A stretch of DNA of 9,219 nt, from assembly GCA_030616165.1 (NCBI GenBank), contig JAUWXV010000150.1:1-9219 (forward strand). Reading direction: 5' to 3'. Made by a program: the position numbers and the translations under genes. The DNA is from a bacterium (lineage in GTDB: Bacteria; SM23-31; JAUVVT01). Positions 3,260 through 9,219 of the stretch are shown here, in pieces. The notes under the pieces were generated by a model. That model did not search any database. It worked only from the letters and a program-made list of their open reading frames with translations, and was not told the origin of the DNA. Each line of letters starts with the position of its first letter. The first letter of the stretch is position 1.

Positions 3260-3272
3260 ATTTTATGTGTAT

Positions 3273-3337
3273 GGGCGAGGCATTCAACTAAAGAGTTTTC
3301 AAAAAATTCACAGCATAGACAAAAAAATGCTTCGCCC
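3273..3337. mobile_element. 65-bp MITE-like palindromic element, copy A
   Basis: GGGCGAGGCATT at the left pairs with AATGCTTCGCCC at the right with one mismatch, enclosing a body that contains ACTAAAGAGTTTTC and CAGCATAGACAAAA. It matches copy B (4564-4628) at 59 of 65 positions without gaps. A 5-bp direct repeat TGTAT flanks it (3268-3272 and 3338-3342), possibly a target duplication. It has no coding capacity. It lies directly upstream of the 3248 start and could contribute to that gene's leader. Confidence 0.75.
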
Positions 3338-3375
3338 TGTATAAATAAAATTCGAAAAACACTTTAAATATTAAA

Positions 3376-3392
3376 AGATGATACGGCAAAAA
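3376..3392 (+). repeat. Inverted repeat bounding the hairpin cluster, left copy
   Basis: AGATGATACGGCAAAAA here recurs in inverted orientation at 3778-3794 with one mismatch (16 of 17). Together they enclose the five hairpins of this field. Confidence 0.6.
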
Positions 3393-3473
3393 GGCTAAAA
3401 TTTTTTTTTAAATCTTTAGTTCTAAAATAGAATATAATTTTAGATTAAATGAATATGAATATTTTAATTATCT

Positions 3474-3496
3474 GGTTCGATAAATCGAATCCCTAC
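3474..3496 (-). repeat. GTAGGG-type hairpin, half of pair 1
   Basis: Read on the minus strand, it starts GTAGGGATTCGA and closes with TCGAACC, with stem TTCGA/TCGAA around a 4-nt loop plus flanking pairs. Its CTAC end (3493-3496, plus strand) faces the GTAG end of the next hairpin across 19 nt. Confidence 0.7.
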
Positions 3497-3515
3497 GAAT
3501 GTTATCATTATAATT

Positions 3516-3539
3516 GTAGGGGCTTGATTTATCAAGCCC
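3516..3539 (+). repeat. GTAGGG-type hairpin, half of pair 1
   Basis: GTAGGGGCTTGAT is followed by a 2-nt loop and ATCAAGCCC, giving a 9-bp perfect stem (3520-3528 with 3531-3539). It is inverted relative to the hairpin at 3474-3496. Confidence 0.75.
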
Positions 3540-3613
3540 TTTATATTAATTTTTGCTAAATCTGCATTTACATAATTAATCCAGAAAATAGAAAATATTT
3601 TTATGTTTCGTGG

Positions 3614-3628
3614 TGCTCCAAAGGAGCA
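3614..3628. repeat. TGCTCC/GGAGCA hairpin
   Basis: A 6-bp perfect stem with an AAA loop lies between the two GTAGGG-type pairs. Its ends lack the GTAGGG sequence, so I treat it as a different repeat type. Confidence 0.5.
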
Positions 3629-3674
3629 TGAATCTTTATTCTGAAAAAAATTCAATTGTAAAATATATATTTAG

Positions 3675-3702
3675 GTAGAGACATGCCATGGCATGTCTCT
3701 AC
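3675..3702. repeat. 28-bp perfect palindrome, half of pair 2
   Basis: The half-site GTAGAGACATGCCA is followed immediately by its exact reverse complement, so all 28 bases are palindromic. It is a fully symmetric GTAG-ended member of the family and can pair in either orientation with the hairpin at 3739. Confidence 0.85.
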
Positions 3703-3738
3703 TTTAATATATTAATTTACTTTAATTCCCACTACTAT

Positions 3739-3762
3739 GTAGGGACAACCCTCGGGTTGTCC
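3739..3762 (+). repeat. GTAGGG-type hairpin, half of pair 2
   Basis: GTAGGGACAACCC, loop TC, GGGTTGTCC gives a 9-bp perfect stem (3743-3751 with 3754-3762). Its GTAG end faces the CTAC end of the 28-bp palindrome across 36 nt. Confidence 0.75.
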
Positions 3763-3777
3763 TTGTTAAATTTTCAT

Positions 3778-3794
3778 TTTTTGCCGTGTCATCT
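3778..3794 (-). repeat. Inverted repeat bounding the hairpin cluster, right copy
   Basis: On the minus strand this reads AGATGACACGGCAAAAA, matching 3376-3392 at 16 of 17 positions. Weaker similarity (AAAATTT) continues inward on both sides. Confidence 0.6.
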
Positions 3795-3843
3795 ATAAAA
3801 AATATATTAAAAATATTACCACTAAAAATTAATTTTACACAGA

Positions 3844-4368
3844 TTATATTGAAATATTTAAAATGTAAAATAATAATCCTAATATAATCCACTGAATTAT
3901 CCAGCCGATGACACATACTCCAACAGCACGTCCTGTTCCAGAGTAATCAAGAGCCTGCCTGACAGCAATTACCATTGCAATCAACATCCATACAGAAGCT
4001 GTTAATAATACAATGCCTGTTAATCCGGGAATAATTCCAAAAACACGAATTAAGCCTGGAGAACTTGAAAAACCAATCGTCCGGAGTAATTCGCCGTAGT
4101 CTGCTTTAGTCTGTGGTTCAGGGAGAATTCTTGTGCCGACAAAATAAACAATATATGACCAGGCATACCATCCAATAAGAGCAGAGACTGTTCCCATTAA
4201 AATCACGCCGATTCCTGCGCTTGAAATAATTCCAATCCCCGCTGCTAAACTTGAAAGAACAACAATCCCCATAGCTTGACCCATAGCCCCCTTATCTGCC
4301 TCAACCTCTTCATACAAACTGACATCTAACTTCGCGGCACGTATAATACGGTCTTTAAAAATATTCAT
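3844..4368 (-). CDS. Yip1-family integral membrane protein
   Basis: This 174-residue protein has a short amphipathic N-terminus (MNIFKDRIIRAAKLD, with the LYEEVEADK segment at 18-26), then about five hydrophobic segments: roughly 31-50, 52-77, 104-120, 122-137 and 147-171. The loop LLRTIGFSSSPGLIR (94-108) and the segment AVRQALDYSGTGRAV (135-149) are the patterns I recognise for bacterial YIP1 domain proteins. Bacterial members are common but functionally undefined, so I assign only a membrane location. The start is set by GAGGTG 6 nt upstream of the ATG at 4368. A GTG at 4377 lies inside that ribosome binding site and is unlikely to be used. The gene is flanked on both sides by gene-free repeat fields of more than 450 bp, so it is probably a single-gene transcript. 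Confidence 0.85.
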   Translation of the reverse strand: MNIFKDRIIRAAKLDVSLYEEVEADKGAMGQAMGIVVLSSLAAGIGIISSAGIGVILMGTVSALIGWYAWSYIVYFVGTRILPEPQTKADYGELLRTIGFSSSPGLIRVFGIIPGLTGIVLLTASVWMLIAMVIAVRQALDYSGTGRAVGVCVIGWIIQWIILGLLFYILNISI

Positions 4369-4374
4369 TTTATT

Positions 4375-4380
4375 CACCTC
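4375..4380 (-). promoter_or_regulatory. Shine-Dalgarno site deciding the Yip1 start
   Basis: The minus strand reads GAGGTG, AATAAA, ATG. The last three bases of GAGGTG form an in-frame GTG that would otherwise be taken as the start. As a ribosome binding site it points to the ATG at 4368. Confidence 0.7.
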
Positions 4381-4424
4381 AATTATTAATATTTTTTTTA
4401 ATGTTTAACCTCATTTGCCCACTT

Positions 4425-4440
4425 GAATTTCACGAAATTC
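4425..4440. promoter_or_regulatory. Inverted repeat GAATTT-N4-AAATTC, possible operator
   Basis: This perfect 6-bp inverted repeat with a 4-bp spacer lies 57 nt upstream of the Yip1 start codon. Size and place fit a dimeric repressor site, but AT-rich DNA yields such repeats by chance, so confidence is low. Confidence 0.2.
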
Positions 4441-4536
4441 TTTGCTTTTTGTAATATTTTCACCCGGTGTTTTTCGAATTTGATTTATTTTTCTTGTCGC
4501 AAACGATTGAAAAATTTGCAGGATTGTTGACAATGA

Positions 4537-4559
4537 ACCCGGTTTTGTTCCAATCGGGT
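4537..4559. repeat. ACCCGGTT/AATCGGGT hairpin
   Basis: An 8-bp stem with one G-T wobble and a 7-nt loop abuts MITE-like copy B on its left side. Confidence 0.5.
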
Positions 4560-4562
4560 GTA

Positions 4563-4629
4563 GGGGCGAAGCATTTAACTAAAGAGTTTTCGAAAAATCT
4601 GCAGCATAGACAAAAAAATGCTTCGCCCC
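4563..4629. mobile_element. 65-bp MITE-like palindromic element, copy B
   Basis: GGGGCGAAGCATTT at the left and AAATGCTTCGCCCC at the right are perfect 14-bp terminal inverted repeats. The core matches copy A (3273-3337) in the same orientation with six differences, all transitions. With the preceding GTA it begins GTAGGGGCGAA, the same end as the hairpins at 7152, 7271 and 7360, so it appears to be a longer-loop member of the same superfamily. Confidence 0.8.
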
Positions 4630-4657
4630 CACAATAATGATAATTCCGTGCAAATGA

Positions 4658-4687
4658 TCCCACAAAATAGTCTATAATATTGTCTTT
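4658..4687 (+). repeat. 30-bp dispersed direct repeat, copy 1
   Basis: This begins TCCCACAAAATAGTCTATAA and matches 7232-7261 at 28 of 30 positions in the same orientation. Both copies lie beside GTAGGG-type palindromes. Confidence 0.7.
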
Positions 4688-4751
4688 TTATTATTGTATT
4701 ATTGCACGCCTGCGCGGGAATAACAAAGGTACTAATGAAAAAAGATTTGTC

Positions 4752-4775
4752 ATTCCCCCGAGTACTCGGGGGAAT
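4752..4775. repeat. 24-bp perfect palindrome, TCATTCCC-type repeat
   Basis: ATTCCCCCGAGT is followed directly by its reverse complement. With its context (GTC before, CCAT after) it resembles the GTCATTCCC...GGGAATCC dispersed repeats seen in many bacteria. It is 107 nt past the stop of the serine hydrolase gene and could act as a transcript end, but the T-run on the minus strand comes about 9 nt after the stem, which is too far for a standard terminator. Confidence 0.7.
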
Positions 4776-4784
4776 CCATTGCTG

Positions 4785-4817
4785 GCGAAGTCCCGCTAAA
4801 GCGGATTTTACCTTCGC
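4785..4817. repeat. Nested hairpin GCGAAG...CTTCGC
   Basis: Outer arms GCGAAG and CTTCGC enclose an inner stem CCGC/GCGG with a TAAA loop. A T-run follows on the plus strand only, where no gene needs a terminator. Confidence 0.5.
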
Positions 4818-4881
4818 ACCTGCTTTTTTAATTAATTATCCTTTTTTAACATTCCCCTTATTTTTCATGATATAAATTATT

Positions 4882-6993
4882 CTACCTTGACAGATTATCA
4901 ACGGTAAGCATCACCTTCTGAATGGAAAAAGCATCGAACGCCGAGCATACCATATATAGAGTTTTTCCGTTACTGCTTATCCATTTAGTTGGAAAGTGCT
5001 GAGCCTCACCTGGCCAACCATTTGTGGTTGAACTTGGCTCAATATAATAAACTTGTATCCATGGTCCCCAGGGTTCAGGCGCCTCGTAAATGCTGAACTG
5101 GTTCATCCCACCTGCATTTGCTCGGCTGCGCATAGTCATAAGATAACGTCCAAGCGGTGCATTGTAAACCACGTCCAGCCTGTTACAGCAACCTTTTAAG
5201 GTAAAGACTGCTCCACGCTGAATGATATCCTTTGTCCATTCAGGGTTGCCATTCGCATCCAGACCCTTGAAAAATTCATATCCTCTCCTGTTCCTTATCT
5301 GATTTCTTAATACCCGGGCCAATACCACATCGTCGGTTTCATTATAGGCGCTCGGAGTATCAGGAGAATAAATGTAAACATAATCATCTCTTGAGCCTGC
5401 ATAATTCTTACCGAAATTCAGAAAACAGCAGTATCCAAAATCTTCAAACTTCCAATCAGCCCATCTCCAGCTCTGTCCATAGTCGGTTGACCAGGCAAGC
5501 TGTGATTGTTCCCCGTTATTATTCGCATTTCTCACCCACATATAGAGAACACCGTCCACCATGAGCATCCCGCTTGCCTTCTTTCCCGATTTTCCATCGC
5601 CAGCATGTTCTCCACTGGGAGAGCGTATATTGACACCAGAAATATTCGTAGGTTCTCCAATGACCTTTGCCAGGCCAAGACTCAGTTTCTCTTTAATTTT
5701 TGGTTCAAATCCCCAACCATCTCCAAATGCTGTGTAAAGATTATCGTCGTCTGCCCATGTGATAGGCCAGTTATCACTGCCTTCTGCCTTGACCACTATA
5801 CTTTCTTGTGAAGCAAAGGTAATGTCTTTGATAACTGCTTTTGATGAGGAATAAGATTCATCATTTACGATTGCGTCCATCAATGGATTGAACAGATATT
5901 TTTCTAATCCACCCCAGAATGTATCTCCAAGCTGTGAACCATTTCGCACAACAATCAAGTCTAAACTCGGAACTACCAGGAGAATTTGATTACCGGCACC
6001 GGCACCTGCAAACGCATCTCCGGGAACCGATCTCCAGACTCCATCGAAGTTCGTCCACCAGCAAAGTCCCGAACCAGGCTCTGGATTATCTTCAGTTCTT
6101 TTGGGTAATGGGGTTCCCGCATATCTGGTACATTTTTCAACCCAACTTCCATCAACAATTTGTTTTCCGTCCCAGTTTCCTTTGTTCAGCATAAGCCGAC
6201 CGATACTCGCCGCCGCCCGGGCAGTATAGTTACCGCCGCCCCAGTTGGCATATAGCATAAGACCTTCCGCTTCACCCCCCTTGCCATAACCTATAGACCA
6301 ATCTTCATCGGGGACTCCAATAGGTCTCATAATCCGTTCTCTAAGCAGATTAAGGATGTTTGATTGTGGGGCACCTTTCAAACTAACTGTTACAGCATAA
6401 GCAAGCATCGCCATTCCTGGATTGCTGTAATGATAATCTGTACCCGGAGTAAATATCACCGGGGCTGAATCTCTGGCGATAATGAAAGCTTCGGCTCCTG
6501 ACCTGTTTCTCCAGAAATCCCCTTTCCAGCCCGGAAGGTCATTTTGTGAAACTCCGAGCCTATCCTCCTTGGCATCTTCAATACCTGAAGAGTGTGTAGC
6601 CAGATGACGTATGGTAATCTTTGCTTTTTCTAAGTCTCCCTTCCATTGAGGTATATACTTCCAGGCGGGTTCTTCAATGTCAATACGTCCATCATTCAAT
6701 GCAAGCATAAGAGATAAACCACCTACTAAAGCCTTTGCCAGTGAAGCGGTGTAATGGTGCGTCTTAGGGCTGTACTCGGATGCATACCATTCATAAACGA
6801 TTTGGTCATGTCTGATAACGAGGAATGTCTTGGTACCTCTGACAGCAAGGGTGTCCTTTAATGCATCGAGTTTTGAGGAGGACATTCCGTTACGCTCAGG
6901 CTCTCCTTTCTGCCACTTAAAATCACTGAACACCCCCTGTGCTAAAAAAACTGCGCAAAATAAAAAAAGAATTATTATAACTTTGTAATTCAT
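4882..6993 (-). CDS. Secreted serine hydrolase (beta-lactamase class C fold) fused to DUF4185-like propeller
   Basis: This 703-residue protein starts with a signal peptide (MNYKVIIILFLFCAVFLAQG) and should be exported. Residues about 30-375 form a class C beta-lactamase/penicillin-binding type serine hydrolase. The nucleophile motif SLAK is at 84-87, LATHSSGI at 131-138, YSN at 189-191, and a glycine-rich GAGAGNQ (about 330-336) stands where true beta-lactamases carry KTG. Family members of this type are esterases or peptidases rather than beta-lactamases. Residues about 390-700 look like a DUF4185/sialidase-like beta-propeller, opening with NWPITWADDDNLYTAFGDG and containing ASGMLMVDGVLYMWVRNA and PWGPW. 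Two adjacent cysteine pairs (522-523 and 602-603) sit in this half. An ATG at 7053 would put 20 polar residues before the signal peptide, so 6993 is chosen, though it lacks a clear ribosome binding site. The substrate is unknown. Confidence 0.88.
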   Translation of the reverse strand: MNYKVIIILFLFCAVFLAQGVFSDFKWQKGEPERNGMSSSKLDALKDTLAVRGTKTFLVIRHDQIVYEWYASEYSPKTHHYTASLAKALVGGLSLMLALNDGRIDIEEPAWKYIPQWKGDLEKAKITIRHLATHSSGIEDAKEDRLGVSQNDLPGWKGDFWRNRSGAEAFIIARDSAPVIFTPGTDYHYSNPGMAMLAYAVTVSLKGAPQSNILNLLRERIMRPIGVPDEDWSIGYGKGGEAEGLMLYANWGGGNYTARAAASIGRLMLNKGNWDGKQIVDGSWVEKCTRYAGTPLPKRTEDNPEPGSGLCWWTNFDGVWRSVPGDAFAGAGAGNQILLVVPSLDLIVVRNGSQLGDTFWGGLEKYLFNPLMDAIVNDESYSSSKAVIKDITFASQESIVVKAEGSDNWPITWADDDNLYTAFGDGWGFEPKIKEKLSLGLAKVIGEPTNISGVNIRSPSGEHAGDGKSGKKASGMLMVDGVLYMWVRNANNNGEQSQLAWSTDYGQSWRWADWKFEDFGYCCFLNFGKNYAGSRDDYVYIYSPDTPSAYNETDDVVLARVLRNQIRNRRGYEFFKGLDANGNPEWTKDIIQRGAVFTLKGCCNRLDVVYNAPLGRYLMTMRSRANAGGMNQFSIYEAPEPWGPWIQVYYIEPSSTTNGWPGEAQHFPTKWISSNGKTLYMVCSAFDAFSIQKVMLTVDNLSR

Positions 6994-7132
6994 AATTATA
7001 CAAAAATTGTGATAGGTTAAAAAATCAGTAAAAAAATATCCCCGACTTGTCATATTACATAAAATTTGCCGTTTTTTCGCTTATTGATTGGTATTTAGAA
7101 TAAATTGTTTTCAACCCTCGTTTTAATGTATA

Positions 7133-7191
7133 TTCCTCTTATACATAACCCGTAGGGGCGAACCCATGTGTTCGCCCTATTTATTTTCTAA
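7133..7191 (+). repeat. 59-bp direct repeat containing a GTAGGGGCGAAC hairpin, copy 1
   Basis: The unit starts TTCCTCTTATACATAACCCG and contains the hairpin GGGCGAAC...GTTCGCCC (stem within 7155-7177). It recurs 208 bp later at 7341-7399 with 6 differences in 59. Confidence 0.75.
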
Positions 7192-7231
7192 CATCCACGT
7201 TTCAATCCTTATTTTCTGCTGGCGAAGGTGT

Positions 7232-7261
7232 TCCCACAAAATAGCCTATAATAATGTCTTT
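7232..7261 (+). repeat. 30-bp dispersed direct repeat, copy 2
   Basis: This begins TCCCACAAAATAGCCTATAA and matches 4658-4687 at 28 of 30 positions. It ends 9 nt before the expanded hairpin at 7271. Confidence 0.7.
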
Positions 7262-7270
7262 CAACCAAAT

Positions 7271-7323
7271 GTAGGGGCGAACCTCTGTGCGTGCACTGTG
7301 TGCGTGCACTGTGTGTTCGCCCT
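7271..7323 (+). repeat. GTAGGGGCGAAC hairpin with tandem-expanded loop
   Basis: The ends GTAGGGGCGAAC and GTTCGCCCT match the neighbouring hairpins, but the loop is about 26 nt longer. The extra sequence is a tandem array of the 13-nt unit CTGTGTGCGTGCA (first copy two bases short), which is itself partly self-complementary (GTGC/GCAC). Confidence 0.75.
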
Positions 7324-7340
7324 CTCTGTTTCAATTTATT

Positions 7341-7399
7341 TTCCTCCTACACAAAACCCGTAGGGGCGAACCCCTGTGTTCGCCCTCTTTGTTTTCTAA
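7341..7399 (+). repeat. 59-bp direct repeat containing a GTAGGGGCGAAC hairpin, copy 2
   Basis: This copy of the 7133-7191 unit starts TTCCTCCTACACAAAACCCG. The hairpin and the trailing TTTTCTAA are shared, and similarity ends after 7399. Confidence 0.75.
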
Positions 7400-7482
7400 T
7401 AGCTAACACCTAACCGCTTGAAGATTTCAATATTTTTATCTTGGCTGTGAAAACAACACACCTGCTCATAATCCCTCAGCAA

Positions 7483-8868
7483 CTATAATGTCCAGCCATC
7501 GCGATACTTGATATGAAGGTACTCATTAGCCTTGTTGTTGTTGGTGAACTTCATATTCTTTCCGTCCCACTCAAGCTTCTCATCCTTCACGCGCATGGCA
7601 AGCACGCCCAGAAGCACCATTTCCGTGAGAGGCCCACCGTAGTCGAAATTTGAACTTGCCGGCTTACCGTCCTTGCAGGCACGTACCCAGTCCTGTTCAT
7701 GACTGCCTTTGACTCTGGGGATTGTTTTTGGCGGAAGTTGATACGACTTCATCTTCGCTTCCGGAATAATCCGAACTCCTCCGGCTCCGTGCGAACCGTG
7801 CATGATAGCTCCCTTGTCGCCGACAAGAATAGCCCCATTAGAACCTAATTTTCTGCCTGGCTCGAGTTCCTTTGGAATCGGCGGCTTGAGTCTGCCGTCA
7901 TACCAGGTAAGTTTGACCGGAGGCATATTGCCGCGCGCCGGAAACTCGTAACGAACAATCGAAGCTCGTGGGTATGTTTCAGTACTGATCCTTTCCTCCC
8001 AGTGTGTTGTCGTGGTTTGAACACTGCTCGGCTGACCCAACTTCAGCGCCCAGAAAGCCGGGTCAAGAATATGGCAACCCATGTCACCAAGCGCACCAGT
8101 ACCGAAATCAAACCAGGCACGCCATTTCAAGGGACAGTATTCAGGATGATAAGGTCTATATTTCACTGGCCCAAGCCAGAGATCCCAATCCAGTGTCTCA
8201 GGTACTGGTGGTGTCTCTTTCGGCCTGGCAATAACGGCAAAGGTGGACCATGGTTGACCACCCACAGGTCGGTCGCTCCATGCGTGCACTTCCGTTACCT
8301 TGCCTATGGCACCGTCATTTATCCATTCGCACAGCAGCCGGATATCCTCTGATGAATGGCCCTGGTTACCCATTTGAGTTTGAACCTTGTGCTTGCGCGC
8401 GGCATCGGTTATCATGCGAGCCTCGTACACAGTATGCGTCAGCGGCTTCTGGCAGTAAACATGTTTTCCCATCTTTATGGCAATCATCGTTGCAGCGGCA
8501 TGCGTGTGGTCGGGAGTTGCCACAATTACGGCATCGATGTTCTTGTCCTCCTTATCTAACATCTCTCGGAAATCAATATATCTCTTTGCATTGGGATACT
8601 TCTCGAATGTATCAGCCGCTCGGTCAGCATCCACATCGCACAGCGCGACAATATTTTCACTTGCACATTCATTAATGTTTGATGAACCCATACCACCTGC
8701 ACCTATGCCGGCTATGTTGAGCTTGTCGCTCGGCGGAATGTAGCCGGAACCTCCTAAAACGTGTCGGGGAATAATTGTAAACACAGCAGCCGCAGCCGCA
8801 CCGCCCATAAAATCCCGTCGTGAAATCTTCATACTCTTCTGTTTGTTAGATATTTTCTGGTCTTTCAT
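7483..8868 (-). CDS. Tat-signal Gfo/Idh/MocA family oxidoreductase
   Basis: This 461-residue protein has a twin-arginine leader (KISRRDFMGGAAAAAVF, about 14-30) ending near RHVLGG, so Tat export is likely. The Rossmann motif GIGAGGMG is at 54-61 and the acidic strand end CDVD at 77-80. TPDHTH (118-123) and QKPLTH (140-145, in place of the more common EKP) follow. GTGALGDMGCHILDPAFW (256-273) carries the conserved histidine of the family. The C-terminal extension fits the long planctomycete-type subgroup. The enzyme is expected to oxidise or reduce a sugar-like substrate with a bound nicotinamide cofactor, but the substrate is not identifiable. Start ATG 8868 has GAGAAG 7 nt upstream. An internal ATG at 8832 is less well placed. 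G+C is clearly higher than in the operon genes: positions 8041-8100 contain 34 G+C in 60. It stands alone between repeat fields. Confidence 0.93.
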   Translation of the reverse strand: MKDQKISNKQKSMKISRRDFMGGAAAAAVFTIIPRHVLGGSGYIPPSDKLNIAGIGAGGMGSSNINECASENIVALCDVDADRAADTFEKYPNAKRYIDFREMLDKEDKNIDAVIVATPDHTHAAATMIAIKMGKHVYCQKPLTHTVYEARMITDAARKHKVQTQMGNQGHSSEDIRLLCEWINDGAIGKVTEVHAWSDRPVGGQPWSTFAVIARPKETPPVPETLDWDLWLGPVKYRPYHPEYCPLKWRAWFDFGTGALGDMGCHILDPAFWALKLGQPSSVQTTTTHWEERISTETYPRASIVRYEFPARGNMPPVKLTWYDGRLKPPIPKELEPGRKLGSNGAILVGDKGAIMHGSHGAGGVRIIPEAKMKSYQLPPKTIPRVKGSHEQDWVRACKDGKPASSNFDYGGPLTEMVLLGVLAMRVKDEKLEWDGKNMKFTNNNKANEYLHIKYRDGWTL

Positions 8869-8934
8869 AATATTTCTTCTCGCATATTATGTTTTGTTAT
8901 TATTTATTGTTTAAACTTTTAGATCAGTTTCTGC

Positions 8935-8940
8935 ATTATA
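8935..8940 (-). promoter_or_regulatory. Candidate -10 element for the 8868 gene
   Basis: The minus strand contains a perfect TATAAT, which would give a leader of about 60 nt before the oxidoreductase start. No convincing -35 hexamer lies 16-18 nt further upstream, so this is weak. Confidence 0.25.
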
Positions 8941-9086
8941 ACTGCGAGGTGAGTGTGAAAGGCTTCTTCTCTTTGTTGTACTGGTATAACTAGTGCCTTG
9001 TTAAATAAAATATGTTCTTTTTTGTAATTTCTATAAAAAAATTTTATTAATTTCTACATTTGTGTAATTTTTAAAAATATGTTAAC

Positions 9087-9111
9087 GGACAGAACGCTGT
9101 TCTGTCCCTAC
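9087..9111 (-). repeat. GTAGGG-type hairpin, half of pair 3
   Basis: On the minus strand this reads GTAGGGACAGAAC, loop AGC, GTTCTGTCC, a 9-bp perfect stem. Its CTAC end (9108-9111, plus strand) faces the next hairpin across 28 nt. Confidence 0.75.
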
Positions 9112-9139
9112 ATAATAGTCATTTGTGATTGAATATATT

Positions 9140-9164
9140 GTAGGGACAGGACATTGTCCTGTCC
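9140..9164 (+). repeat. GTAGGG-type hairpin, half of pair 3
   Basis: GTAGGGACAGGAC, loop ATT, GTCCTGTCC gives a 9-bp perfect stem. It is inverted relative to 9087-9111 and differs from it in the stem core at matched positions, so pairing is kept in both. Confidence 0.75.
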
Positions 9165-9219
9165 TTCTGTTCTAAAGTAAAAGTTGATTTTATTTCGTTT
9201 ATTACTTTTCCATTTTAAA

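Follow-up and report, generated by a model that had tools for sequence, protein, structure and literature searches.

Hairpins and carrier repeats of the window

The window, that is, the whole stretch of DNA analysed here (9,219 nt), is an entire contig (C213) of a draft genome of 3.74 Mb in 343 contigs, with a GC content of 35% in the part of the genome that was read. Its genes encode Gfo/Idh/MocA-type oxidoreductases, a DUF362 protein, a DUF6599 protein and a beta-lactamase/DUF4185 protein. Ten GTAG-tagged hairpins and one degenerate copy were located, all of them intergenic according to the predicted genes, the calls of which are based on open reading frames and are approximate. The hairpins have in common a 5' GTAG tag, whilst their self-paired cores differ, as listed here with folding z-scores relative to shuffled sequences.

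3269..3337, plus strand: degenerate copy of the long-loop element at 4560, in which GTAT replaces GTAG
3473..3496, minus strand: REP with core TTCGA, a decayed copy of GTAGGGGTTCGATTTATCGAACCC carrying two one-armed changes (z -1.0)
3516..3539, plus strand: REP with core CTTGA, GTAGGGGCTTGATTTATCAAGCCC, tail-to-tail with the REP at 3473 (z -4.6)
3675..3702, no strand assigned: double-foot REP, GTAGAGACATGCC/GGCATGTCTCTAC (z -6.6)
3739..3762, plus strand: REP with core ACAACCC, GTAGGGACAACCCTCGGGTTGTCC (z -3.5)
4560..4630, plus strand: long-loop GTAG hairpin with stem GGGGCGAAGCATTT/AAATGCTTCGCCC and a loop of ~40 nt (z -5.3)
7152..7177, plus strand: REP with core CGAACCC, GTAGGGGCGAACCCATGTGTTCGCCC
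7271..7322, plus strand: REP with core CGAACC and a 13-nt loop unit in tandem (z -6.0)
7360..7385, plus strand: REP with core CGAACCC, GTAGGGGCGAACCCCTGTGTTCGCCC, which folds better than its shuffles
9087..9111, minus strand: REP with core CAGAAC, GTAGGGACAGAACAGCGTTCTGTCC
9139..9163, plus strand: REP with core CAGGAC, GTAGGGACAGGACATTGTCCTGTCC, tail-to-tail with the REP at 9087

When folded as single-stranded DNA, nine of the ten hairpins were far more stable than shuffled sequences (z -3.5 to -6.6). The initial annotation, which had described one hairpin family with conserved ends and variable, always self-paired cores, was therefore sound as regards the tag and the paired cores, but not in its statement that every copy keeps its stem, since the 'ATTCGA' copy at 3473 is a TTCGA hairpin that has decayed through two one-armed substitutions. 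Nor are the ends a constant GTAGGG/GTAGAG; what recurs is GTAG followed by a stem base rich in G, and GTAGGG is only one form of this. The reading as a single family was rejected, as the window hairpins belong to several families, and the cores fall into separate multicopy classes, each with its own copies elsewhere in the genome and its own flanks. For instance, the pattern of the double-foot REP at 3675 gave 47 strand-wise matches against three for its control, and ~15 copies of the long-loop type at 4560 were found in the sampled sequence.

The loops of the CAGAAC, CAGGAC and CGAACC hairpins (window 7271-7322; also L038, L129 and L170) are extended in steps of 13 nt, by units such as TGCCTGCACACTG that are in some cases arranged in tandem. 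Other multicopy short palindromic repeats, of the TCATTCCC...GGGAATCC type and the CCCCCTT type, are present at positions 4750-4779 and 1-40. Positions 1-108 recur without a difference at the end of C56 and at the start of C214; contigs of this assembly end in repeats.

Copies of one hairpin family have long flanks in common. The pairs 3473/3516 and 9087/9139 are embedded in repeats of ~230 bp, of which 16 and 30 copies, respectively, were examined, and three larger elements could be delimited.

3371..3799, no strand assigned: MITE-like element F, with inverted ends GATGATACGGCAAAAA / TTTTTGCCGTGTCATC, which carries the REPs at 3675 and 3739 and is interrupted by element A
3419..3631, no strand assigned: repeat element A (16 copies aligned), which lies inside element F and carries the 3473/3516 REP pair
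8989..9219, no strand assigned: MITE-like element B, with inverted ends TAGTGCC.../...GGCACTA, which carries the 9087/9139 pair and is cut by the contig end

The insertion of A into F is flanked on both sides by an 8-bp duplication, AATCTTTA, and copies of F without A were found on C21, C56, C223, C44 and C302. A paralogous locus on C329 lacks B from exactly the left end of that element. In the copies of A and B the REP pairs had been copied along, with loop insertions and a small number of stem changes, most of them confined to one arm. Among 25 close REP pairs, 11 were inverted tail-to-tail and three head-to-head; identical hairpins were sought in these pairs and found in none of the 25, so that no inverted pair of one class, the arrangement that defines a REPIN, was present among them.

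GTAG hairpins and RAYT genes across the genome

Hairpin statistics were drawn from 1.13 Mb of sequence, ~30% of the genome, taken as stretches. With no tag preset, GTAG was the tetramer most enriched beside perfect hairpins in the 1.13 Mb, in which 157 GC-rich hairpins stood behind GTAG compared with 1-29 behind nine control tetramers. A pattern fixing only the stem base was matched 342 times in the whole genome, against 34 times for its reversed control. GT[AG]G was positioned directly at the 5' foot of palindromes of 20-40 nt, as is characteristic of GTAG REPs; CTAC at the 3' foot (double-foot) accompanied 19% of the hairpins, and GTAG-GGG classes dominated, which fits three G-C pairs at the stem base. 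Although 76% of the sequence is coding, only 8 of 135 hairpins lay inside open reading frames, the calls again being approximate. An Rfam search with the hairpins returned no family match, and a literature text search for GTAGGGGC retrieved only unrelated papers. In the genome of the sole other member of the family the pattern was not in excess (23 matches vs 18 in the control).

There were seven Y1_Tnp hits, and the genome gave 19 matches to the REP_Tyr_transpos model NF047646, the latter corresponding to ~16 loci, several of them truncated. Relative to the curated cut-off of 80 bits for NF047646, five proteins scored 126.9, 103.1, 79.2 and, in two cases, clearly below. The best relative of solved structure was the Escherichia coli TnpA_REP 4ER8 (E 9.5e-18). 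The motifs of TnpA_REP subclass 2.4 (NH[IFV]H, WQ and YIxNNP) are present in the RAYTs on C268 (NHFH, YIFNNP), C108 (NHFH, YIINNP) and C329 (NHIH, YIINNP), whereas those on C302, C283 and C182 do not match them exactly, and some RAYTs of this genome have DHIH and YIENHP. The RAYT gene at L013 14447-15625 (C182) is flanked by eleven GTAGCCGAGCC hairpins in one orientation, many of them ~41 nt apart. A broken Y1 transposase gene at L011 944-1391 (C24) lies between long inverted repeats with GGGGACAC, an arrangement described for TIR-associated tyrosine transposases.

GTAG hairpins were found inside, or within ~600 bp of, 13 of the 14 RAYT loci examined, with 43 hairpins at these loci against at most five for control tags, and several RAYT genes, among them those on C268, C283, C302, C207 and C329, contain such hairpins in frame. 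Amongst relatives in other phyla, GT[AG]G hairpins lay at most 400 bp away or within the gene in 59 of 73 cases (190 hairpins vs at most 20 for control tags). Four of the window cores recur at or in a RAYT gene. TTCGA hairpins stand on both sides of the RAYT at C182:26182; a RAYT remnant at C302:3127 has CAGAAC hairpins on either side; 25 nt of the CGAACCC hairpin at 7152 are found in frame inside a 231-aa RAYT on C207; and a GTAGAGAC hairpin, which matches the window by type, is inside the RAYT on C329. For the ACAACCC and CAGGAC families of the window, no RAYT with an exactly matching core was found among those read. Identical REP hairpins (e.g. GTAGGGGCGATTCACGAATCGCCC, GTAGGGGCGAATTTATTCGCCC and GTAGGGGCGACCCGGTGGGTCGCCC) are also shared between this genome and other phyla (L190, L192, L197, L209, L236 and G029), which suggests either transfer of RAYT/REP sets or convergence.

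The hairpins are thus very probably GTAG-tagged REP elements, substrates of the RAYT (TnpA_REP) single-strand HUH/tyrosine transposases of the same genome, and for each REP class there is probably a dedicated transposase that recognises and copies it. Going by the known enzymology, a RAYT would read the GTAG foot together with the folded stem-loop of one strand and would help to copy it to new intergenic sites. Different RAYT copies would prefer different stems, which would account for the many REP classes in one genome that have the same tag and differing cores. Copying would move the hairpin as a whole, often as a pair and often within a MITE-like carrier.

It is rather unlikely that the hairpins are instead passive cargo of DDE-type MITEs and now spread without any involvement of the RAYTs. 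Elements A, B and F do have inverted or duplicated ends of their own, AATCTTTA flanking A, and for this reason some of the window copies may derive from MITE transposition and not directly from RAYT activity. However, hairpins of the same classes were also found without carriers, many classes are situated at RAYT genes, and single hairpins are present or absent depending on the copy of F. The MITE-like carriers do point, for several window copies, to a second route of mobility, probably served by another transposase.

Covariation of the arms and steps of stem change

The initial annotation had proposed that the self-paired cores reflect either selection on structure or a copying process that writes both arms together, and had called for an alignment of genome copies to examine covariation between the arms. 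This was carried out on 24-nt elements with 23 distinct cores, which were taken from matches fixing the outer bases only, so that pairing of the core was not selected. Paired bases occupied 94.8% of the core cells, compared with 50.6% after shuffling, and the covariation score was 1.20 against 0.27 in shuffles (reached in 0 of 500), with sliding controls all far lower. The arms of the hairpins covary beyond doubt. Selection on structure is upheld by this covariation, by a shape that is that of a RAYT substrate, and by the RAYT genes beside and around the hairpins.

The steps by which stems change were examined among close relatives. As the genus is represented by this genome alone, the comparison used paralogous copies of the elements and homologous RAYT genes in place of orthologous intergenic loci. 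Across 14 family consensus sequences, 151 one-armed and 67 compensated cells were counted, these being cells and not events, and minimum spanning trees of distinct variants gave 78 one-armed steps against 16 compensated double steps between nearest variants. Thirteen of the 16 were transitions and three were transversions, for which a G-T wobble cannot serve as intermediate; a transition bias as evidence for a wobble path was considered and dropped, the doubles (13:3) showing no clear difference from the singles (57:21). In the homologous RAYT genes on C302 and C283, three in-frame hairpins occupy the same sites, of which one is identical and two differ by one-armed changes. In the more distant RAYTs of Clostridia, the arms of the in-gene hairpin at homologous codons covary fully, and one base pair takes all four Watson-Crick states (T:A, G:C, A:T and C:G).

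These counts bear on a process in which a change in one arm is copied to the other in a single event, by snap-back templating, template switching or gene conversion within the hairpin, so that the stem stays perfect. The 16 double steps with their three transversions agree with it, as do the GTAGAGAC palindrome, in which compensated changes (4) outnumber one-armed ones (2), and the homologous in-gene hairpins that differ by double changes including transversions. Nonetheless, we regard it as quite improbable: one-armed changes dominate both the steps and the cells, and the prevalence of double changes expected between nearest variants was reversed. Moreover, the closest homologous gene pair differs by two one-armed changes and no double change, and the copy at 3473 has two one-armed changes that were never corrected, one of them in common with its nearest copy.

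With one-armed changes dominating close comparisons and covariation seen over greater distances, copying of whole units combined with selection on structure fits the data, and arm-to-arm copying is not needed. Whole-hairpin copying, which is shown by the flanks in common, makes both arms travel together, and the covariation between classes would arise since recognition would require a stem that is still able to fold. Individual mutations would hit one arm, often as G-T wobbles, and would then be lost, decay in place or be compensated; the pattern itself was observed, whilst selection would be its cause. The simplest reading is therefore that one-armed mutations are later compensated or replaced, with selection keeping the stem foldable. 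Of the two parts of the earlier proposal, the writing of both arms together survives as the copying of whole elements with their flanks, and not as snap-back or conversion. Likewise, the tag is common to the families, and the arms are coordinated over long distances, though not at each step. The earlier observation was thus largely right and its reading partly supported, and no new copying trick is required.

It is improbable that some class switches occur in one step, in which the other arm of a single-stranded REP, exposed or cut by its RAYT, serves as the template for repair or copying. If so, transversion pairs such as the T:A, A:T, G:C and C:G at one site would arise without a mismatched intermediate. 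For the change of REP stem class (orthoswitch), the ~16 RAYT-like loci and dozens of distinct stems of this genome and the codon-alignable in-gene hairpins of Clostridia offer material with which to measure whether stems change arm by arm. The first such measurement, made here, favours one-armed steps with later compensation.

That the hairpins are primarily intrinsic terminators or RNA stability elements, with pairing kept by selection on RNA, has very little probability, since T-rich sequence after several hairpins, 13 terminator-like structures in the window against 6.4 expected, and a position between mostly codirectional or convergent genes leave unexplained the GTAG tag, the multicopy classes, the in-frame hairpins in RAYT genes and the RAYT association, and no Rfam family was matched; a secondary role of this kind is possible.

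Comparison with known REP systems

GTAG-tagged REP families, complementary changes in their stems and their link to RAYTs have already been described (PMC3733652; PMC3686654). The hairpins of this genome are of the same form as those of Di Nocera et al. 2013 (PMC3733652), being palindromes of 20-40 nt with GTAG at one foot, in high copy and extragenic, and they likewise occur as singles and dimers, in several families per genome, with complementary stem changes between subfamilies. They differ in their low-GC uncultured host, in the very many classes in one genome, and in that close pairs always combine different classes. MITE-like carriers also hold several of them; nested REPs in palindromes are described in that study for a few species.

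Three traits seen here are known from TnpA_REP subclass 2.4, the RAYT group 4 REPtrons (Quentin et al. 2018, PMC6006769): REPs that lie in frame within a transposase gene, REPs with a double foot, and stems whose base consists of three G-C pairs. The exact motifs of this subclass are found in three of the RAYTs here, with DHIH and YIENHP in some others, and the ~16 RAYT-like loci compare with the 1.5 copies that the survey found on average. The REPs of Pseudomonas and Stenotrophomonas (Nunvar et al. 2013, PMC3686654) have the same tag, perfect class-specific stems and changes of class at orthologous RAYT loci, but belong to another phylum, with no more than four RAYTs in any genome and no in-gene REPs reported. 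In three systems, TnpA_REP has been shown in vitro to recognise GTAG as well as the loops and stems specific to a class (PMC8266576).

Taken with the described GTAG REPs, the subclass 2.4 traits and the exact motifs in three RAYTs, this recognition places the present finding within a known kind. What is unusual here is how many RAYT loci and stem classes one genome has, and the absence of a single pair of one class among the 25 close pairs, REPINs elsewhere being usually of one class.
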